From NCBI GenBank assembly GCA_900321715.1, contig ONXC01000003.1:1-64000 (forward strand): 64,000 nucleotides of DNA, given 5' to 3'. Both the position numbers and the translations under genes were made by a program. The DNA is from an uncultured Bacteroidales bacterium (GTDB taxonomy: Bacteria > Bacteroidota > Bacteroidia > Bacteroidales > UBA932). The notes beneath the pieces are model-generated. The model searched no databases. It worked only from the letters and a program-made list of their open reading frames with translations, and was not told the origin of the DNA. The number at the start of each line of letters is the position of its first letter. Within the stretch, counting starts at the first letter, position 1. Below, piece by piece: positions 25,754 through 35,104 of the stretch.

Positions 25754-26169
25754 ACTTTATCACGGAGACCAAGGTAATAATTCTCCTTGGATCTCATCAT
25801 GGCAATATCTTCCTCAGAGTGGTCGTCGTATCCAATAAGGTGAAGAAGACCGTGAACTATGACGCGGTTTAATTCCGTAGGGAAATCAACGCCGTAGAAA
25901 GAAGCATTCTCACGGACAGAATCAATGGAAATGAACAGATCACCAGAAAGACGGTCACCCTCACAATAATCGAAAGTAATGATGTCAGTGTAATAATCGT
26001 GTCCCAGATATTTTATATTGACATCCAGAATATAATTATCGGAGCAGAATATAATAGCGACATCACCCAACTTCTTGGCTTCGCTGCCTGCAACAAACTT
26101 GAGCCAGCGGGAAGTAAGGCGCTTCTCCTTAAAAGGGAAGTTAATATCTTCGTTGAAATAGGTAACCAT
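25750..26169 (-). CDS. ybeY: Endoribonuclease YbeY
   Basis: 139 residues, metal-dependent RNase for 16S rRNA 3' maturation and ribosome quality control. The zinc motif is HGLLHLIGYDDH (H-x3-H-x5-H) at about residues 105-116, preceded by YLGHDYYTDIITFDY and GDLFIS as in the family. It overlaps mnmG downstream by 4 bp and the STAS gene upstream by 1 bp (TAATG), so the phosphatase fusion-STAS-ybeY-mnmG genes probably form one transcript. Confidence 0.94.
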   Translation of the reverse strand: MVTYFNEDINFPFKEKRLTSRWLKFVAGSEAKKLGDVAIIFCSDNYILDVNIKYLGHDYYTDIITFDYCEGDRLSGDLFISIDSVRENASFYGVDFPTELNRVIVHGLLHLIGYDDHSEEDIAMMRSKENYYLGLRDKV

Positions 26170-26471
26170 TACTCAAACTCAAAAATTGAAATAAAACCTG
26201 TTAGCTCCAGGACATCCTTGACAACTTCATTGACATTCTTAAGGATAACCCTGGACCCTACGCTCTTTGCTTTCTTAAGAATTCCAAGAAGAAGACGCAG
26301 GCCGCTGGAGGCTATATACTCAAGCCCGGAGCAGTCAATAACGACATCCCTTCCCTTGCTGTCAAGAAGTGGCTGAAGTGAAACCTCGGCGTCGGCAGAG
26401 GCAGCCGTGTCCAGTTCTCCGTTTAAGATAGCCAGAATTTGTTTTTCTGACTGCTGAATCTCAATTGTCAT
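26169..26471 (-). CDS. STAS-domain anti-sigma factor antagonist
   Basis: 100 residues, a single STAS domain of the SpoIIAA/RsbV kind. The key segment is VVIDCSGLEYIASSGLRLLL; Ser56 (the Ser before Gly-Leu) is the expected phosphorylation site. In known systems the dephosphorylated form binds the anti-sigma kinase and frees a target. The ATG at 26471 overlaps the upstream phosphatase/kinase stop by 4 bp (ATGA), which favours this start over the longer frame to 26519. Confidence 0.88.
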   Translation of the reverse strand: MTIEIQQSEKQILAILNGELDTAASADAEVSLQPLLDSKGRDVVIDCSGLEYIASSGLRLLLGILKKAKSVGSRVILKNVNEVVKDVLELTGFISIFEFE

Positions 26472-27880
26472 ACTATGGATTTTGTTAAAGTTAACACGTT
26501 GAATTCTGTCTTTCGGCAATAGGACACAGAGTCCATTATCTCACGGGAAAGGAGAATACCAAGGCCTCCTATAGAGCGTTCCTCGGCGCTTAAGGTGATG
26601 CTTTGAGGAACAACCGCGGTTGGGTCAAAGGGAATACCTTTGTCAACTATGGTGAAGCGCAGCTCCTTAAAGTCGCTATCGGCATAAATGGACACCATGC
26701 CTTCCTTGGGAGAAGGATAGGCATAGCTCACAACGTTCACAACCATCTCCTCTACCGCAAGCCGTATACTGAGCCCAAGCTTTCCTTCAAGCTGAAGATT
26801 GGCGCAGATTCCCTTCAGGAAATCGCTAAGCTTAGAAAGCTCCTCAACCTTATTCTTAAGGACTAGACTCTCTTTGAAAAGAGTCATCTTGGGATAGTGG
26901 ATAAGGAGCATCGTAAGGTCGTCGCTCTGGGGGGCTCCGCCAATGAATTCATGGGCCGATTCCCGAAGCGTCAGAACGGTCTGCTCAGGCGAAAGAGAAG
27001 AGCTCAGGGACAGCTTGAGAGCATCCTCCAGGCGTGACTTGCCAAAGGGTTTTCTCTGTGTATTCTTTGCCTCAGTTAGTCCGTCAGTATAAAGGAATAT
27101 GGACGATCCCGGAGTGAGCTCTATGAACTCTTCCTCATAAACGGTGTCGGGAAAAACGCCCAGAGGAAGATTGGCCTTGGACGGCAGGACAGAAACGTTT
27201 CCGGAAAGAAGGAAAGGTTTGTCGTGACCGGCGTTACTGTAGCGGAACTTTCCTGTATAGAGATCCAGGCACCCTACAAAGAAGGTCACAAACATATTTG
27301 TGTCGTTATCCCTGCACGCCTGGGTATTGAGCACTGTCAATATACGCGAGGGGCTTTCCTCTTTTTCAGAAACAACCCTGAAAAGGGAATGGATAACAGA
27401 CATGAGCATTGCCGATGGAACACCTTTCCCGCTTACATCACCAACACAGAAAAAGAGCTTTCCGTCACGACGATAAAAGTCAAATAGGTCTCCTCCCACC
27501 TCACGTGCGGGTTCCAGAAGGCCAAAGATATTGTCATGGAATGCCTTGGGAAGCATTTCCTTCTGGATGCTGCGCGCGACAGAAAGTTCTCCGTTTATGC
27601 GCGCCTGCACCTGGGAGGCCTCGCGGAGTTTTGCCTCACTGCGGGCATAATGGTAAAGCATCACGGCAAGCACGCCAATGCCAAGAAGAGCCATCAGAAG
27701 ATGTTCCTGATGCATTGTCCGGATAGGGGCCGATATTTCCTCGGACAGATCCTCATGAACCTCCTGTTCCACCAGGTCAATAGTGCGCCTATAATGCAAA
27801 ACTGAAATAATCTCCACCAAAACGGCAGCGACAACAGCAATGCACACTATGACAATCCACTTTCTGGACGGTTTTTTCAT
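26468..27880 (-). CDS. Membrane PP2C (RsbU/SpoIIE) phosphatase fused to an RsbW-like kinase
   Basis: 470 residues. Two N-terminal membrane helices (about 8-28 and 61-80) flank a short extracytoplasmic segment. A SpoIIE-type PP2C phosphatase follows (about 95-325: EVGGDLFDFYRRDGKLFFCVGDVSGKGVPSAMLMSV, NAGHDKPFLL, LYTDGLTEAKN, SDDLTMLLI). The C-terminal ~135 residues are a GHKL ATPase of the anti-sigma kinase kind (RLAVEEMVVNVVSYAYP as N-box, IVDKGIPFDP, GGLGILLSREIMD). Phosphatase and kinase that act oppositely on a STAS protein are therefore in one chain, with the STAS gene next. The downstream target is not in the window. Confidence 0.9.
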   Translation of the reverse strand: MKKPSRKWIVIVCIAVVAAVLVEIISVLHYRRTIDLVEQEVHEDLSEEISAPIRTMHQEHLLMALLGIGVLAVMLYHYARSEAKLREASQVQARINGELSVARSIQKEMLPKAFHDNIFGLLEPAREVGGDLFDFYRRDGKLFFCVGDVSGKGVPSAMLMSVIHSLFRVVSEKEESPSRILTVLNTQACRDNDTNMFVTFFVGCLDLYTGKFRYSNAGHDKPFLLSGNVSVLPSKANLPLGVFPDTVYEEEFIELTPGSSIFLYTDGLTEAKNTQRKPFGKSRLEDALKLSLSSSLSPEQTVLTLRESAHEFIGGAPQSDDLTMLLIHYPKMTLFKESLVLKNKVEELSKLSDFLKGICANLQLEGKLGLSIRLAVEEMVVNVVSYAYPSPKEGMVSIYADSDFKELRFTIVDKGIPFDPTAVVPQSITLSAEERSIGGLGILLSREIMDSVSYCRKTEFNVLTLTKSIV

Positions 27881-27912
27881 GGTGTAAAGTTACATATTTC
27901 AAACGAAAATTC

Positions 27913-27920
27913 TAAATTTG
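27913..27920 (+). promoter_or_regulatory. -7 promoter element of the NRPS gene
   Basis: TAAATTTG fits TAnnTTTG, 21 bp before the ATG at 27942, in a 61-bp divergent gap shared with the phosphatase/kinase gene. A good TTG -33 partner is not evident, so the promoter may be weak or activator-dependent. Confidence 0.5.
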
Positions 27921-27941
27921 TGAATACCAAACACTCTAACG

Positions 27942-30900
27942 ATGAAACCGGCCCCCACTAACACCATACTTCAGGACTTTCAAAAGCACGTCAACAACTC
28001 CCCGGAACACGTAGCAATTGTATATGAAAACGCCAGCCTGACATACGAAGAGGCCAACCGCATCTCTGACAACCTGGCTGCATATATTGAGTCAAAGGTC
28101 CCTCAGAAGAGCGTCGTGGGAATAATGATCGGCCGTGGCATTCATATGCTTACCGCCCCCATCGGCGTACTTAAGGCAGGCTGCGCTTACCTTCCCCTTG
28201 ATCCCTCGTATCCGCCTGAGCGCCTGCAGTTTATGATGAAGGACGCGGGCGCCGCCATGCTCATCGCCGACGAGTCCCTTCTACCCATCCTAAAGGACAC
28301 GGACGTACCCGTTGTAAAGACGGCCGATATTGAAAAGCTGCACCCCGGAAAACCGGTTTCTGAGCCATCGGCCGATGACCTCTTCATCCTTCTTTACACC
28401 AGCGGCACCACCGGTACGCCTAAGGGCTGTATGCTGAGCCACAGGAACGTCTATGCCTTCTGCTCCCACCACAGGGACAATATGGGGTTTGGCCCCGATA
28501 CCCGTATGACCGGCTACGCCAGTTTTGGCTTTGACGCCTTTGCGGCAGACCTATACACCACAATTATCTCCGGCGGAACCCTGTACGTCATTCCGGACCG
28601 CATACGCCTGGACCTTCATGCCCTCCACGCCTACTATGAGGAAAACGGTATCACACACTGCTTCATGACCACCCAGGTGGCCACTCAGTTTGCCATCAAT
28701 TACCCGGACTGCAAGGGCCTCAAGGTCATGTTCACGGGGGGAGAAAAGATGTCCAGTTTCCCGCTTCCGCATTACAGGCTTTTCAACTGCTACGGTCCTA
28801 CGGAATGCATGTGTTACGTGGTGGACGAGGAAGTGAAAGTGCAGGAGGACAACATCCCTATCGGCCTTCCCCTTGAGGGCGTACATACCTATATTGTAGA
28901 TAAGGACGGCAGGCAGGTTCCGCAGGGTGAAAGCGGAGAACTGTGGGTTGCCGGCTGGCAGGTGGGCCTTGGATACCTCAACCGGCCGGATAAGACCGCC
29001 GAGGTATTCATCCCCAACCCCTTTGAGAAAGAGCCTAAATTTGCCCGCATCTACCGCACCGGAGACATTGTCCGCCAGAGGGCCGATGGAAAGATAGAAT
29101 ACCTTGGACGCCGTGACGGCCAGGTGAAAATCCGCGGCTTCCGCATTGAACTCAAGGAAGTGGAGGCCGTGATAAGGGAATTCCCGGGCATCAGGGACGT
29201 TACCGTCCAGGCTTTTGACGAGCCCGGCGCCGGCGGCGGAAAATTCCTGGCGGCATACATAGTAAGCGATAAAGAAATTGACATTCAGGAGCTTGACGCC
29301 TTCATTGCCGATAAAAAGCCCCCGTATATGGTCCCGGCCGTGACCATGCAGATAGAGGCCATCCCCCTCAACGTAAACCAGAAGGTGGACGTGAAGGCCC
29401 TGCCAAAGCCGGAGCCCCAGGAACGGAAGACCGAGGGCCATGTTGCCCCCTTGAATGTCCTGGAAGAGGAACTGGCGGCCCTTGTAAAGGATACGGTTGG
29501 AATAGGCGGCTTCGGCCTTACAGAGCCTCTCTACTACAGTGGCCTATCCTCCCTCAGCGCCCTCAGGCTAGCAACGGAACTGTACAAGAAATACGGCATA
29601 GAGCCCAATATGGACAGTTTTGCAAAGACTGCCAGCCTCCAGAGCATTGAGAACGAAGTCCTTAAGGTTCTGATGAAGCCAAAGGTGGCCGATAGTGAGG
29701 GAAAATCGGCCCAGGATGAGCCGCAGGAGCTCACCTTCCAGCAGATGGGCCTGTACCTTGACTGCGTCAAAAACCCTTCCTCAACGGCCTACAACCTGCC
29801 TTTTATCCTCACTCTCCCGGATGGCGTTGGCGCAATTGAGCTGAAAGCCGCTCTGCTTGACATCCTGAAATCCCACCCCGTACTCACAGGCCGCTTTGAG
29901 CAGCGTGACGGAAAGGTTTTGATTGCTCCGGGAACGGCTCCGGAAGACATCCCTTACATAAAACTGAAGTCAGAGAAAGAATTCCTCCCTCTCAAAGAGA
30001 ACTTCATGCAGCCCTTTGACCTCTCAAAGGGCCCTCTCTACAGGCTCAATATAGTACAGACTCCCGGCAAGCTGCGCCTTATGGGAGACTTCCATCACCT
30101 GGTGTTTGACGGCAGGTCCTACGACGTTTTCCTTTCAGAGCTTGCCGCCGCCCTTGAAGGCCGTAAACCGGAAAAGGAAACCTACACCTATTTCCAATAC
30201 GCCCAGGACCAGAAATCCTATCATGAAAGCGCAGAATTCAAGGAGGCCGATTCTTACTTTGCTGCCCGTATGCAGGGAAAGGAAGAGGAAACCGGCCTTA
30301 TCCCGGACAAGAAGCCGGAAGAAGGGGAGGTTGGCCACGAAAAATGGCTCCGCAAAAAGGTTGGGGCAAACGTCATGGCGCGCTGCCACGCCCTTGGCAT
30401 ATCGCCCGCCAGCTACTTCCTGTCCGCCGCATTCCTTACCGTAAGCGCCTTCTGCGGGCAGAAGAAAGTGTTCCTCTGCACCGTTGCCAACGGCCGCACG
30501 GATATGCGCGCATCTGACACCTTCGGCATGTTTGTGAACACTATGCCGCTGGTGGGAGAGATTGGCACCCAGAGGGCCGATGACTTCCTGAAGGAGACAG
30601 ACGCCGGCTTCTCCTCCACCCTTTCATACCAGAACTATCCCTTTGCTAGGATATCATCGGCCTACGATTTCCATCCCACGGTGATGCTGGCATACCAGGT
30701 GGGACTGCTGGAAAAATACAGCGTCAACGGTGAGGCTCTTGAGGATGAACTCATAACTCAGGACACGCCAAAATTCCCCCTTAGCATATTCATCGAAGGC
30801 ACGGAGGAAGCTCCGGAACTGGCGCTTGCCTACGACGACTCCCTGTACTCGGAGCCCCTTGTGCAAAGTTTTGCCGATTCCCTTGACACCGTGTGCCGCG

Positions 30901-33900
30901 GCCTTCTGAAGGACTGCCCCGTAACGGAGATTCCGTTTGTGGAGGGAGACCGCCTTGAAGAGCTTGACAGCTTTAATAATTTCACTCAGGAAGTAGACCT
31001 CAAGGAGACCGTCGTTTCCCTTTTCCGCAAGCAGGCAAAGGCCACTCCGGATGCCCCTGCGGTACTTTTTGAAGGCAAGACCATCAGCTACAGGGAACTT
31101 GAACACATAACGGATTCCCTGGCCGCAACAATCCTTGGATTTGGCCTTAAAGAGGAGGATGTGGTTTCCGTCCTCATTGGCCGAAACTCCTGGATGACAA
31201 AGGCCTCCATGGCAGCAATGAAGGCCGGCTGCGCGTATCAGCCGCTGGATCCTTCCTACCCGCCGGAGCGCCTTAACTTCATGATAAAGGACTCCGGGGC
31301 AAAACTTCTTATTGCCGATAAAGAGCTTCTCCCTCTTGTAGGAGACTACAAGGGCCCCGTGCTTACTACTGAGGAGCTTGAGAAACTACAGGATCTGCCC
31401 TGCAAAGCTATCGGCCCTAAGCCGGAGAGCCTCTACATCCTGCTTTACACCTCCGGTTCCACGGGTACGCCTAAGGGCGTCATGCTGGAGCAGCGCAACC
31501 TTGTGAACTTCTGCGCCTGGTACAATAAATATTTCGGCCTCAAGGCCGGAGACCGCGTTGCGGCCTTTGCAAGTTACGGGTTTGATGCAAACATGATGGA
31601 CCAGTACCCCGCCCTCACCTGCGGCGCTTGTGTGTGCATTATCCCGGAGGCTGTCCGTCATGACCTTGGCGCCCTTGACCGTTTCATCACGGAAAACGGC
31701 GTTTCGCATAGCTTCATGACCACCCAGGTGGGCGTCATGTACGCCAGGAACTTCCCTGAAAACAAGTCCCTGAGGCACCTTTCCGTAGGCGGAGAAAAAC
31801 TGGTTTCCATGCCGCCGCCCTCATACGCTTTCTACAACGGCTACGGCCCCACGGAGTGCACCATCTTCTCCACCATCTTCCACGTCAAGGAAAAGGAGGA
31901 CAACATTCCCATCGGCCATCCGCTCAGTAATGTCCAATTATATGTGGCCGATTCTGAGATGCGCCGCCTCCCCGTTGGTGCGGCCGGAGAACTTCTCATA
32001 GGCGGCGCCGGAGTGGGCCGGGGATACCTCAACAACCCTGAAAAGACGGCCCAGAGCTTCATAGAAAACCCTTTCCAGCCCGGTGTAAGGCTGTACAAGT
32101 CCGGCGACATTGTGCGTTACAGACCGGACGGCAACATTGAATTCGTGGGCCGCCGTGACGGTCAGGTAAAGATCCGCGGCTTCCGCATAGAGCTTAAGGA
32201 AGTGGAGGCCGTAATCCGGGAAATCCCGGGCGTAAAGGACGTCACCGTACAGGCGTTTTACGCCCCTTCCGGCGGCAAGTTCCTGGCAGCATATGTTGTG
32301 GCCGATGGTACCTTCGACACAAAGGCGGCGGCAGACTACATCCGTGAACGTAAACCGCCGTATATGGTGCCTGCCTCATGGATGCAGCTTGACAAGATTC
32401 CGCTCAACGTAAACCAGAAGGTTGACAGAAGGGCCCTGCCGCCGGCAACCCCCAGCGCCATGGACGACTACGTTGCCCCCGCTACAGATACGGAGAAGAC
32501 CCTCTGCACCATTTTTGCCGATGTCCTTGGCGTTGAGAAAGTGGGCGCAACGGATTCTTTCTTCGACCTTGGAGGAAGTTCCCTCATGGTCACAAACGTA
32601 ATGGTGAACGCAGAGAAGAAAGGCCTTCGCTTTGCCTATTCCGATGTATTCTCCCATCCATCGGCCCGTGCCCTTGCTAAATTCCTTGGCGGAGATGAGG
32701 CTCCATCAGGAGAAGACAGTAACATTACTGAATACGATTATTCCGCCATCGACGCCCTCCTGAAGAAGAACAGCCTTGAATCTTTTGCCAAAGGAGTGCG
32801 CATTGGCCTTGGAAAGAACATCCTCCTTACCGGTGCAACCGGATTCCTTGGGGTGCACGTCCTGAAGGAGCTTATAGAGAGCACCGGCCCGGACACCACC
32901 ATCTGGTGCCTCCTGCGTTCAAAGGGAGAGATTACGCCCCAGCGCCGCCTGAGGGAAATGCTTGTCTACTACTTTGAGAAGGATTACCGTAAACTCCTGG
33001 GCACCCGTATACAGGCCGTGGAAGGCGACATAACTAAGCCGGAAAGCCTTGACGCCCTGAAGGACATTGACATGGTGTTCAACTGCGCAGCAAACGTCAA
33101 GCACTTCTCCAAGGGAACGGACATCGAGGACATAAACTATGGCGGCGTAAAGAACCTGGTGGCCTTCTGTGAACGGCGTGGAGCCTATCTGGTGCACGTT
33201 TCTACGGAAAGCGTTGGCGGCCTCACTCCCGGAAAGGTTCCCGCTACGCTCACGGAGCAGACGCTCTTTTTCGGGCAGCTCACAGACAACCAGTACGTCC
33301 ATTCAAAGTTCCTTGCCGAGCGCCATATCCTGGAGCATATGGTTGAAGGAAAACTGAAGGCAAAGATCCTCCGCGCCGGTAACCTGAGCCCCCGCGCCCA
33401 GGACGGAGAATTCCAGGTGAACATGAACGCCAACGCCTCCATGGGCCGATTAAAGGCCTTCAAGATGCTTGGCGCCTGCCCCTACGGGCTCCTTGAAGAG
33501 AGCCTGGAGTTCACGCCTATCGACGAGGCGGCCCACGCCATGGTGCTCCTTGCCGGAACGCCCCTTGAGAACTGCGTCTTCAACGTTTCCAACGACCACC
33601 TCATCCCCATGGAGGACATCCTTTCACGCCTCAGGATAATAGACGGAAGGCCTCTTGAATATGTGGAGATGCCCGCGTTCCGGAAGCTTATGAAAAAGGC
33701 CAACGCAGACCCCGTCAAGGCAAGGATACTGGCTCCGCTGGTGGCTTATGAGCAGTCTGCAGCAGAGAAGGAGGGCGTGGAGACAAAGTCCTCCACAACG
33801 TTCACCATGCAGATTCTCCACCGCCTTGGCTTCCGCTGGGACCACACTTCAAGCCTCTATCTTGATATGATATTCGAAATGCTGCGTACAATGCAGTATT

Positions 33901-33908
33901 TTGATTAA
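27942..33908 (+). CDS. Dimodular NRPS with terminal thioester reductase (A-PCP-C-A-PCP-R)
   Basis: 1988 residues. A1 (about 10-490) has LYTSGTTGTPKG at 151-162 and the terminal PLNVNQKVD lysine. PCP1 has its phosphopantetheine serine in GLSSLS (about Ser537). The condensation domain (about 600-1035) carries an intact HHLVFDG (His718-Gly724). A2 (about 1050-1500) has LLYTSGSTGTPKG; PCP2 has DLGGSSL (about Ser1547). The reductase (about 1620-1988) has the NAD(P)-binding ILLTGATGFLG and the Tyr1785-x3-Lys1789 pair of extended SDRs. No thioesterase, epimerase or methyltransferase is seen. Expected logic: load one amino acid, couple a second, release reductively as a dipeptide aldehyde (or alcohol). 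By-eye specificity residues DAAFFGCCYK (A1) and DAMFSGGIFK (A2) match no code I know. No phosphopantetheinyl transferase, transporter or resistance gene adjoins it. Confidence 0.93.
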   Translation: MKPAPTNTILQDFQKHVNNSPEHVAIVYENASLTYEEANRISDNLAAYIESKVPQKSVVGIMIGRGIHMLTAPIGVLKAGCAYLPLDPSYPPERLQFMMKDAGAAMLIADESLLPILKDTDVPVVKTADIEKLHPGKPVSEPSADDLFILLYTSGTTGTPKGCMLSHRNVYAFCSHHRDNMGFGPDTRMTGYASFGFDAFAADLYTTIISGGTLYVIPDRIRLDLHALHAYYEENGITHCFMTTQVATQFAINYPDCKGLKVMFTGGEKMSSFPLPHYRLFNCYGPTECMCYVVDEEVKVQEDNIPIGLPLEGVHTYIVDKDGRQVPQGESGELWVAGWQVGLGYLNRPDKTAEVFIPNPFEKEPKFARIYRTGDIVRQRADGKIEYLGRRDGQVKIRGFRIELKEVEAVIREFPGIRDVTVQAFDEPGAGGGKFLAAYIVSDKEIDIQELDAFIADKKPPYMVPAVTMQIEAIPLNVNQKVDVKALPKPEPQERKTEGHVAPLNVLEEELAALVKDTVGIGGFGLTEPLYYSGLSSLSALRLATELYKKYGIEPNMDSFAKTASLQSIENEVLKVLMKPKVADSEGKSAQDEPQELTFQQMGLYLDCVKNPSSTAYNLPFILTLPDGVGAIELKAALLDILKSHPVLTGRFEQRDGKVLIAPGTAPEDIPYIKLKSEKEFLPLKENFMQPFDLSKGPLYRLNIVQTPGKLRLMGDFHHLVFDGRSYDVFLSELAAALEGRKPEKETYTYFQYAQDQKSYHESAEFKEADSYFAARMQGKEEETGLIPDKKPEEGEVGHEKWLRKKVGANVMARCHALGISPASYFLSAAFLTVSAFCGQKKVFLCTVANGRTDMRASDTFGMFVNTMPLVGEIGTQRADDFLKETDAGFSSTLSYQNYPFARISSAYDFHPTVMLAYQVGLLEKYSVNGEALEDELITQDTPKFPLSIFIEGTEEAPELALAYDDSLYSEPLVQSFADSLDTVCRGLLKDCPVTEIPFVEGDRLEELDSFNNFTQEVDLKETVVSLFRKQAKATPDAPAVLFEGKTISYRELEHITDSLAATILGFGLKEEDVVSVLIGRNSWMTKASMAAMKAGCAYQPLDPSYPPERLNFMIKDSGAKLLIADKELLPLVGDYKGPVLTTEELEKLQDLPCKAIGPKPESLYILLYTSGSTGTPKGVMLEQRNLVNFCAWYNKYFGLKAGDRVAAFASYGFDANMMDQYPALTCGACVCIIPEAVRHDLGALDRFITENGVSHSFMTTQVGVMYARNFPENKSLRHLSVGGEKLVSMPPPSYAFYNGYGPTECTIFSTIFHVKEKEDNIPIGHPLSNVQLYVADSEMRRLPVGAAGELLIGGAGVGRGYLNNPEKTAQSFIENPFQPGVRLYKSGDIVRYRPDGNIEFVGRRDGQVKIRGFRIELKEVEAVIREIPGVKDVTVQAFYAPSGGKFLAAYVVADGTFDTKAAADYIRERKPPYMVPASWMQLDKIPLNVNQKVDRRALPPATPSAMDDYVAPATDTEKTLCTIFADVLGVEKVGATDSFFDLGGSSLMVTNVMVNAEKKGLRFAYSDVFSHPSARALAKFLGGDEAPSGEDSNITEYDYSAIDALLKKNSLESFAKGVRIGLGKNILLTGATGFLGVHVLKELIESTGPDTTIWCLLRSKGEITPQRRLREMLVYYFEKDYRKLLGTRIQAVEGDITKPESLDALKDIDMVFNCAANVKHFSKGTDIEDINYGGVKNLVAFCERRGAYLVHVSTESVGGLTPGKVPATLTEQTLFFGQLTDNQYVHSKFLAERHILEHMVEGKLKAKILRAGNLSPRAQDGEFQVNMNANASMGRLKAFKMLGACPYGLLEESLEFTPIDEAAHAMVLLAGTPLENCVFNVSNDHLIPMEDILSRLRIIDGRPLEYVEMPAFRKLMKKANADPVKARILAPLVAYEQSAAEKEGVETKSSTTFTMQILHRLGFRWDHTSSLYLDMIFEMLRTMQYFD

Positions 33909-33913
33909 CTTTG
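33906..33913 (+). promoter_or_regulatory. -7 promoter element of hflX
   Basis: TAACTTTG overlaps the last codons of the NRPS gene and precedes the hflX ATG by 6 bases, so hflX can be transcribed independently with almost no leader. The -33 element is weak. Confidence 0.5.
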
Positions 33914-33919
33914 CGCCCT

Positions 33920-35104
33920 ATGAGTGAATTCAAGACCAACAAAGCAGTATTTGTGGGCGTCATCCTGGAAAAGGGCGGCGAACGTAAAGTGAAGGAGTAT
34001 CTGGACGAGCTCCAGTTTCTGGCCGAGACAGCCGGCGCAATAGGTGACAAGATGTTCACCCAGAGGCTGGACAGGCCGGACAAGGCAACTTATATCGGCC
34101 CCGGAAAACTGGAGGAAATAAAGGAGTACTGCCTGGATAATGAGATAGAGTACGTCATATTTGACGACGAACTCACCGGCATGCAGCAGCGAAATATTGA
34201 AAAGATAATAGCCTGCTCCGATGTCATAGACCGTACCAGCCTTATCCTTGAGATATTTGCCCAGAGGGCCAAGACTTCATATGCCAAGATGCAGGTGGAA
34301 CTGGCCCACTACAACTACATGCTGCCCCGCCTTGCGGGCATGTGGACTCACCTTGAGCGCCAGAGGGGCGGTATGGGCACCCGCGGCGGTATGGGTGAAA
34401 CCCAGATAGAGATTGACCGCCGAATTGTAAAGCAGCGTATCTCCAAACTTAAGGAAGACCTAAAGAAAGTGGACAGGCAGATGGCCACGCAAAGGGGCAA
34501 CAGAGGCTCTCTGGTGCGTTTAGCCTTGGTGGGGTATACCAATGTAGGGAAAAGCACTTTGATGAATCTACTGGCCAAATCTGACGTGTTTGCAGAGAAT
34601 AAACTCTTTGCCACCCTGGACACCACCGTCAGAAAGGTTGTCATAGAGAACGTGCCGTTTCTCCTGAGCGACACAGTAGGGTTCATCCGTAAACTCCCCA
34701 CCCAGCTTGTGGAGGCCTTCAAGAGCACTTTGGACGAGGTCCGTGAGGCCGATGTCCTTGTGCATGTAGTGGACATTTCCCACCCTGATTTCGAGGAACA
34801 GATGGAGGTTGTGGAAAAAACTCTCCAGGATATCGGCGCTTCAAACAAGCCCTGCTACGTTGTTTTCAACAAGGTGGACGCCTACACCTATGAGCCCTAT
34901 GACGAATTCTCCCTGGAGCCAAAACAGCCCGCAAACCGCACCCTGGAAGAGCTCAAGCATAGCTGGATTGCAGAGGAAAAGACTCCTTGTATATTCATAT
35001 CGGCCAAGGAGAAGATAGGCATAGAAAAACTCCGCAACGACCTATATAAGATAGTTGCGGAGATTCATGCGGGAAGATATCCTTTCAATAACTTCCTATG
35101 GTAA
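33920..35104 (+). CDS. hflX: Ribosome-associated GTPase HflX
   Basis: 394 residues. Splits stalled or stressed ribosomes. The N-terminal HflX domain includes DRPDKATYIGPGKLEEIKEY and FDDELTGMQQRNIEKI; the coiled coil follows the glycine-rich ERQRGGMGTRGGMGETQIE. The G domain has G1 GYTNVGKS, G3 DTVGF, and FNKVDAY as G4. The ATG at 33920 is used rather than a TTG at 33911, because the latter falls inside the -7 element. It begins 11 bp after the NRPS stop, but the own promoter and housekeeping role suggest no functional link. Confidence 0.95.
   Translation: MSEFKTNKAVFVGVILEKGGERKVKEYLDELQFLAETAGAIGDKMFTQRLDRPDKATYIGPGKLEEIKEYCLDNEIEYVIFDDELTGMQQRNIEKIIACSDVIDRTSLILEIFAQRAKTSYAKMQVELAHYNYMLPRLAGMWTHLERQRGGMGTRGGMGETQIEIDRRIVKQRISKLKEDLKKVDRQMATQRGNRGSLVRLALVGYTNVGKSTLMNLLAKSDVFAENKLFATLDTTVRKVVIENVPFLLSDTVGFIRKLPTQLVEAFKSTLDEVREADVLVHVVDISHPDFEEQMEVVEKTLQDIGASNKPCYVVFNKVDAYTYEPYDEFSLEPKQPANRTLEELKHSWIAEEKTPCIFISAKEKIGIEKLRNDLYKIVAEIHAGRYPFNNFLW

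Follow-up and report, generated by a model that had tools for sequence, protein, structure and literature searches.

The window analyzed here is a stretch of 64,000 nucleotides from an uncultured Bacteroidales bacterium (contig ONXC01000003.1 of assembly GCA_900321715.1). Between the genes ybeY and hflX, it harbors a three-gene cassette, composed of a forward-strand gene for a dimodular nonribosomal peptide synthetase (NRPS) with the domain order adenylation (A), peptidyl carrier protein (PCP), condensation (C), A, PCP and reductase (R), and two reverse-strand genes, which encode a STAS protein and a SpoIIE-type PP2C phosphatase fused to an RsbW-like HATPase domain. PP2C and STAS genes are recurrent neighbors of related synthetases, and this pattern speaks for a unit whose production is regulated and against an isolated gene. 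The elements of the cassette are as follows:

27942..33908, forward strand: NRPS gene, dimodular (A-PCP-C-A-PCP-R), 1988 amino acids; ATG start, single intact open reading frame (ORF), Pfam, alignment, ratio of nonsynonymous to synonymous substitution rates (dN/dS)
27963..29408, forward strand: A1 adenylation domain, about residues 8-489; Pfam, with the code DAAFFGCCY plus Lys read by motif anchoring
29454..29657, forward strand: PCP1 carrier domain, approximate limits, Ser537 in GLSSL; Pfam and alignment
29724..30917, forward strand: condensation domain, residues 595-992, HHLVFDG intact; Pfam and alignment
31023..32420, forward strand: A2 adenylation domain, residues 1028-1493, code DAMFSGGIF plus Lys; Pfam and code reading
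32499..32687, forward strand: PCP2 carrier domain, residues 1520-1582, Ser1547; Pfam and alignment
32820..33905, forward strand: terminal thioester reductase domain, about residues 1627-1988, Thr1755/Tyr1785/Lys1789; Pfam, alignment and structure match
26468..27880, reverse strand: SpoIIE-type PP2C fused to an RsbW-like HATPase, membrane-anchored, 470 amino acids; Pfam, membrane hairpin by eye
26169..26471, reverse strand: STAS protein, anti-sigma-factor-antagonist-like, 100 amino acids from an internal ATG, Ser in IASSGL; Pfam
27881..27941, no strand: divergent intergenic region of 61 bp between the PP2C and NRPS genes; comparison of loci

Architecture and conservation of the synthetase

Pfam resolves the 1988-residue NRPS into two AMP-binding domains, one Condensation domain, two PP-binding domains and one NAD_binding_4 (Male sterility-type reductase) domain, arranged in the order A-PCP-C-A-PCP-R. 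In a nine-member alignment of NRPSs, the carrier serines (S537 and S1547), the condensation-domain residues H718-H719 and D723-G724, the A-domain lysines (K481 and K1493) and the reductase residues T1755, Y1785 and K1789 are all invariant; their roles are those generally assigned to these motifs. Domain order and catalytic residues are those of a dimodular reductase-terminated NRPS, which bears out the original observation of a single chain with intact motifs. The solved structure closest to the PCP-R part is 6vtj, a PCP-R didomain that matches over 480/480 residues (E 6.5e-85) and that we take to originate from a rumen methanogen. The R domain also matches the structure of the AusA reductase (4f6l, E 3.6e-36), and a Ser/Thr-Tyr-Lys triad is described for R domains in PMC8949500. 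Comparison with five relatives yielded dN/dS values of 0.067-0.111, indicating that the gene is maintained by purifying selection, because synonymous change far exceeds amino-acid change. The G+C content is about 0.55 over positions 28001-34000, compared with 0.46-0.48 in the preceding 4 kb and 0.46 at 35-36 kb, a difference that by itself shows nothing, since G+C reaches 0.58 elsewhere in the window.

PP2C and STAS genes recur beside related synthetases

Relatives of the NRPS were collected by a genome-collection scan with a 13-member R-domain alignment, and the best 80 of at least 567 relatives (at least 597 stretches), a selection biased to close relatives, were compared as named loci. In 20 of them the NRPS ORF was incomplete; removing these left 60, and exclusion of a further 12 with a short upstream flank left 48 (at least 2.5 kb). 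Matches to PP2C, STAS, MATE, HATPase and R domains in these surveys come from custom hidden Markov models (HMMs) built on few members; moreover, related loci are not independent, and no probability is hence attached to the counts. Within 4 kb of the NRPS gene, PP2C was found in 35/48 loci, STAS in 33/48 and either of the two in 36/48, the last value being 44/60 for all loci with a complete NRPS ORF. When the window is added, PP2C lies within 4 kb in 40 of the 61 complete loci, is absent from 13 and cannot be assessed in eight. The idea of a stand-alone synthetase, "lying alone" in its surroundings, thus no longer holds for a gene whose divergent PP2C-STAS neighbors start only 61 bp away and recur in its relatives.

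The same neighbors stood out when no family was preselected. Single-linkage clustering of the 381 ORFs located within 4 kb of the NRPS genes of 57 representatives (less than 90% R-domain identity) produced 225 clusters, among which PP2C/HATPase proteins ranked first (39/57 representatives) and STAS proteins second (27/57), followed by proteins with a median length of 436 amino acids (11/57), proteins that appear sodium-symporter-like by their first residues (8/57) and HflX (7/57). The top cluster contains 45 ORFs, 39 with a PP2C match, four with a MATE match and two with a HATPase match only; small STAS genes can drop out of this kind of clustering through overlapping ORFs.

The relative position of the genes is variable. 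The PP2C gene lies upstream in divergent orientation in 20 loci, upstream and co-directional in 14, downstream and co-directional in five, downstream and opposite in one, and nowhere nearby in 13. With absence counted as a state, the arrangement changes at least 14 times on an R-domain tree of 61 rows, a quick and rough reconstruction that uses the C-terminal 395 residues per ORF and includes two long-branched rows (L134 and L185). PP2C and STAS genes persist beside the NRPS where the other neighbors differ (e.g. loci L070, L079 and L082), and PP2C genes also accompany NRPSs about half identical to that of the window (L099-L101) and even those with only 35-40% identity (L112-L121), with STAS matches in L113 and L115-L117. 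In several loci, for example L175, L178, L179 and L201, PP2C, STAS and NRPS genes are co-directional and separated by short gaps. Among the 29 top-ranked PP2C matches in 300 congeneric genomes, 23 share their contig with an NRPS match that is only a few kb away (hand count), and the assembly containing the window (2.04 Mb, 81% complete) has just three SpoIIE genes.

Some relatives differ in the organization of the NRPS itself. Four loci (L136, L148, L174 and L185) contain two adjoining NRPS ORFs, each with an R-domain match. The NRPSs of L086 and L087 (genomes G212 and G277) are mosaic, with a front half similar to a 2,400-residue clade (L088) and a back half, from about window residue 1000, similar to the clade of the window, and look as if NRPS modules had recombined.

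The phosphatase-kinase and STAS genes

SpoIIE, HATPase_c_2 and STAS matches all exceed the Pfam cut-offs, so that the gene pair encodes together the phosphatase, kinase and STAS components expected of an RsbU/RsbW/RsbV-type switch. The STAS gene overlaps the PP2C gene by 4 bp; its mechanically called ORF begins at a TTG (26519), and the internal ATG is preferred by comparison with relatives of 100 amino acids. In all four dCache-type relatives scanned (L070, L087, L098 and L099), an MCP (methyl-accepting chemotaxis protein)-like PDC sensor precedes the PP2C and ATPase parts. The window protein has kept the membrane segments and lost the extracellular PDC/dCache sensor of about 230 amino acids, which is retained in the close relative G412; the phosphatases of the nearest relatives likewise lack it. 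In L096 the neighboring PP2C is a shorter protein that has no ATPase half.

Within the 61-bp intergenic region, TAAATTTG at positions 27913-27920 is kept in all six compared loci and fits the consensus of the Bacteroidota -7 box; inspection by eye of the same region showed no clear -33 box. A scan for sigma-70 promoters and terminators gave no excess over shuffled sequences (6 versus 6.3 and 11 versus 11.9). The synonymous divergence (dS) of the PP2C gene from that of L067 (0.074) is far below the values for the NRPS (0.249) and hflX (0.437) genes of the same locus, and local gene conversion or transfer is a possible explanation. Separately, genes for proteins of about 430-456 amino acids adjoin STAS-PP2C pairs at L124:6977-8263, L177:2464-3834 and L125:2346-3635. 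The first of them matches the Alginate_exp barrel family barely above the cut-off (26.9 versus 25.2 bits), and the L177 protein looks like a secreted barrel by eye; a search of the window's genome with the L124 protein, run without a positive control, gave no match at 1e-5.

Substrates and predicted product

The window NRPS has no N-terminal condensation domain, a feature kept in other clades and seen, for instance, in the Pfam scan of L086; it belongs to the 13 of 61 complete loci whose NRPS is shorter than 2100 amino acids. The first residue should therefore keep a free amine, which fits cyclization of a released aldehyde to a pyrazinone, as in the route of AusA, the aureusimine/phevalin synthetase of Staphylococcus aureus. 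This enzyme releases an amino aldehyde, which then cyclizes (PMC12153313). The originally predicted release of a dipeptide aldehyde by the reductase, with a pyrazinone as a possible end product, is thus well supported by the anatomy of the enzyme, namely the R-domain triad, the matches to 6vtj and 4f6l and the missing N-terminal C domain.

Read by alignment, the code of the last A domain follows the pattern DAMF[SA]G[GA][IV]F in 60/89 representatives. That of the first A domain, obtained by motif anchoring with some positions unread in part of the rows, is more variable. The code positions follow the GrsA numbering, and both window codes look hydrophobic by general code tables, a resemblance that stops short of naming an amino acid. 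A single PF01648 match above the cut-off, indicative of a phosphopantetheinyl transferase, is present in the assembly (G000:C10:166261-166458, in an ORF of 212 amino acids), about 132 kb from the NRPS gene on the same contig.

The ybeY-hflX site

The cassette is bordered by the following gene outside it:

33911..35104, forward strand: hflX, probable ATG at 33920; ORF list, Pfam and NCBIfam

Only 11 bp separate the NRPS stop codon from this probable start, and a TAACTTTG box at 33906-33913 overlaps the NRPS stop. In the congener G217 (L103), whose hflX is 94% identical to that of the window, ybeY adjoins hflX directly, with no STAS, PP2C or NRPS gene in between. The window thus carries a three-gene block at a site that is unoccupied in L103. 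Among the 16 congeneric hflX loci, the 15 other than that of the window show no R-domain, PP2C or STAS match within flanks of at most 1.5 kb. Close relatives have the cassette at the ybeY-hflX site (e.g. L067, L068, L069, L073, L076 and L078), and it is found elsewhere in L070, L079 and L082. The NRPS is 79% and 76% identical to its counterparts in G162 and G091, respectively, compared with 72% and 73% for hflX, values that are suggestive, albeit not decisive, of horizontal transfer between genera. Of the 2649 plasmid records with a match, none reached 60% identity.

MATE exporters

In three loci, Pfam identifies a MATE transporter and an RsbW-like HATPase domain in one chain (L117:3217-4920, L119:17169-18872 and L121:6748-8508), and custom HMMs point to the same fusion in L126, L127, L200 and L204. 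Five of these seven fusion genes (those in L117, L119, L121, L200 and L204) adjoin reductase NRPS genes; no NRPS was seen on the fetched stretches of L126 and L127. The fusions may possibly provide a direct link between partner switch and export. At a threshold of 1e-30, a fusion of this kind is present in two of the 30 genomes searched and absent from the window's genome. The assembly contains nine MatE matches, eight of them over the cut-off, on contigs C7, C15, C17 and C27 and none on C10, the contig of the window; a MatE gene adjoining the NRPS is thus lacking here. A MATE gene is also found close to the third SpoIIE phosphatase gene of the genome, and the two are not separated by an NRPS (L219:5872-10132, G000:C15).

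Distribution and habitat

At a cut-off of 1e-100, an NRPS match is present in 66 of 300 congeneric genomes and in 29 of the 118 congeners with a completeness of 90% or more and a contamination of no more than 5%. In a phylum-wide spread of 395 genomes, in which at most four candidates were scored per listed genome, the only match to the R-domain model at 1e-50 came from the genome of the window itself. Since 370 of these 395 genomes have a completeness of 90% or more, the sample may contain too few uncultured rumen lineages, and it indeed missed relatives, because the collection scan found them under Prevotella, Muribaculaceae and other names. Among the best 80 named loci, 65 carry a name at the level of Bacteroidales or below, and the names of the remaining 15 go no deeper than Bacteroidia or Bacteroidetes. 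Names of ruminant-gut metagenome-assembled genomes (MAGs; RUG, RGIG or deer labels) account for 63 of them, 15 bear a run number only, and two are UBA genomes. RUG and RGIG are ruminant-gut MAG labels, and many titles also give the animal and organ. Judged by the 63/80 MAG names, the habitat in these collections is the gut of ruminants and not that of humans, and the human-gut frame with host cathepsins as targets, in which the product had first been placed, is not supported by this distribution.

Comparison with known systems

AusA shares the A1-T1-C-A2-T2-R order (T, thiolation) of the window NRPS (PMC12153313). The NCBIfam AusA model (NF047350) covers residues 7-1982 with 964 bits, starting at model position 413, so that the N-terminal part of the model has no counterpart in the window NRPS. 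Since this score falls far short of the equivalog cut-off of 2500, the enzyme is AusA-like in architecture but not an AusA equivalog. Unlike in ausAB, there is no adjoining phosphopantetheinyl transferase gene, its place being taken by the PP2C-STAS neighbors.

Reductase NRPSs of human-gut bacteria reportedly give dipeptide aldehydes and pyrazinones, as Guo et al. are said to have described in 2017. Like the window enzyme, they are short, R-terminated and found in anaerobic gut bacteria, a likeness by description rather than by sequence; unlike them, the relatives of the window NRPS mostly bear ruminant-gut MAG names. That the aldehyde form can inhibit proteases is noted in PMC12153313.

A similar neighborhood was already reported in 2010 for a rumen methanogen, which makes the Bacteroidales cassette a variant. 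The two-module NRPS of Methanobrevibacter ruminantium M1 (mru0068) is flanked by two serine phosphatases, an anti-sigma factor antagonist and MatE, for which sensing, regulation and export were proposed (Leahy et al., 2010; PMC2812497). Its terminal domain is given as a thioester reductase domain in the supplementary legend and as a thioesterase in the main text (PMC2812497). As in the window, a two-module NRPS is thus combined with phosphatase and antagonist genes, but mru0068 is archaeal and has MatE, which is lacking on the window contig, and the two are likened by description, not by sequence. In the open-licence PMC literature, as far as represented by excerpts, an NRPS beside phosphatase and antagonist genes was found only in this paper, although a Bacteroidales linkage may still be published. 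A survey of rumen gene clusters lists 5,346 NRPS clusters in 8,160 genomes, and its excerpts do not mention a linkage between NRPS and PP2C/STAS genes (PMC8241843).

As for the regulatory genes, the window combines PP2C, an RsbW-like kinase and STAS in the manner of RsbU/RsbW/RsbV and SypE/SypA. In SypE, kinase and phosphatase domains are likewise united in one protein, which acts on the STAS protein SypA (PMC12826045). SypE has a receiver domain, whereas full-length relatives of the window phosphatase have a PDC/dCache sensor, and, unlike both of these systems, the putative switch of the window is linked to an NRPS.

Discussion

Together, the genomic evidence makes it probable, though far from certain, that the cassette encodes a dimodular synthetase releasing a free-amine dipeptide aldehyde, able to cyclize to a pyrazinone, under the control of the neighboring partner switch. 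The NRPS would be primed by the phosphopantetheinyl transferase of the genome, load two probably hydrophobic amino acids and join them, and its R domain would then release the product in aldehyde form, with the amino group still free. This aldehyde could cyclize to a dihydropyrazinone or pyrazinone, as described for aureusimines. The PP2C and kinase halves of the neighboring membrane protein would set the phosphorylation state of the STAS protein, and this switch may control the making or exporting of the compound. For a reductase NRPS, neither the enzyme nor the class of its likely product is unusual; what deserves attention is the recurrent linkage to partner-switch genes across ruminant-gut Bacteroidales.

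Several observations weigh against this assignment. The sensor is missing from the phosphatase of the window itself, and in 12 of the 48 testable NRPS loci both PP2C and STAS are absent from the surrounding 4 kb. Conversely, the module also exists apart from the synthetase, as in two pairs:

L220:5622-8112 (G000:C29): PP2C-HATPase of 724 amino acids, sensor-length, plus a STAS gene; custom HMMs
L107:9033-12688: STAS and PP2C genes of G427 beside hflX, as in the window, without an NRPS; gene-order comparison

The first is a second PP2C-STAS pair of the window's own genome, on another contig and with no R-domain match nearby; the second adjoins hflX in the absence of an NRPS. Six of the 29 top PP2C matches (G285, G308, G384, G395, G427 and G447) are on stretches without an R-domain match, as are the pairs of G221 and G244. 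These stretches are L106-L111, L124 and L125, some of them on short contigs; apart from L107, they hold seven further pairs. PP2C proteins of this general type are present in 202/300 congeners (1e-40), and the PP2C-STAS module is therefore not exclusive to the NRPS. With regard to the product, R domains carry out 2- or 4-electron reductions (PMC8949500), so that alcohols are also possible.

One alternative, which we regard as unlikely, is that the partner switch is a general signaling module that has a separate output and simply happens to occupy the same site, leaving the NRPS outside its control. The divergent transcription in the window and the NRPS-free pairs beside hflX in G427 and elsewhere in the window's own genome would agree with this idea, but the genes have re-associated in different orders, and the co-directional loci with short gaps (L175, L178, L179 and L201) speak against it. 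Rather improbable, in our view, is a four-electron reduction yielding a dipeptide alcohol in place of an aldehyde or pyrazinone. The sequence does not decide between the two known modes of reduction, but the missing N-terminal C domain leaves a free amine that can trap the aldehyde, and the architecture-matched AusA yields an amino aldehyde that cyclizes (PMC12153313). A truly lone NRPS gene, which would owe its PP2C and STAS neighbors merely to the abundance of such genes and to joint inheritance of the block, is least probable of all: the frequency of PP2C relatives in the genus, the 12 unaccompanied NRPS loci and the NRPS-free pairs (L220, L107) speak for it, but there are just three SpoIIE genes in the assembly, PP2C/HATPase is the top neighbor among 225 clusters, PP2C can lie upstream in either orientation or downstream of the NRPS, and it accompanies even NRPSs with only 35-40% identity to that of the window (L112-L121).

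If the synthetase is indeed governed by its neighboring switch, a self-contained chemical-signaling circuit becomes conceivable, a doubtful extension in which the dCache-PP2C-kinase of full-length relatives senses the NRPS product, or a related amino-acid cue, on the outside of the cell, and STAS switches synthesis or export. In that case, the MATE-RsbW-like fusions (L117, L119, L121, L200 and L204) would let STAS gate the exporter directly, and the window would represent a sensor-less, perhaps constantly set, version.

The outputs of partner switches are, to our knowledge, poorly known in this phylum, and the cassette suggests a switch that governs a reactive small molecule. The prevalent last-position code (60/89), together with a more variable first position, provides a concrete chemical prediction, and the linkage in Bacteroidales may bear on the neighborhood reported for the rumen methanogen (PMC2812497). 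A seemingly orphan synthetase would thereby become a testable regulated unit, common to many uncultured Bacteroidales of the ruminant gut.

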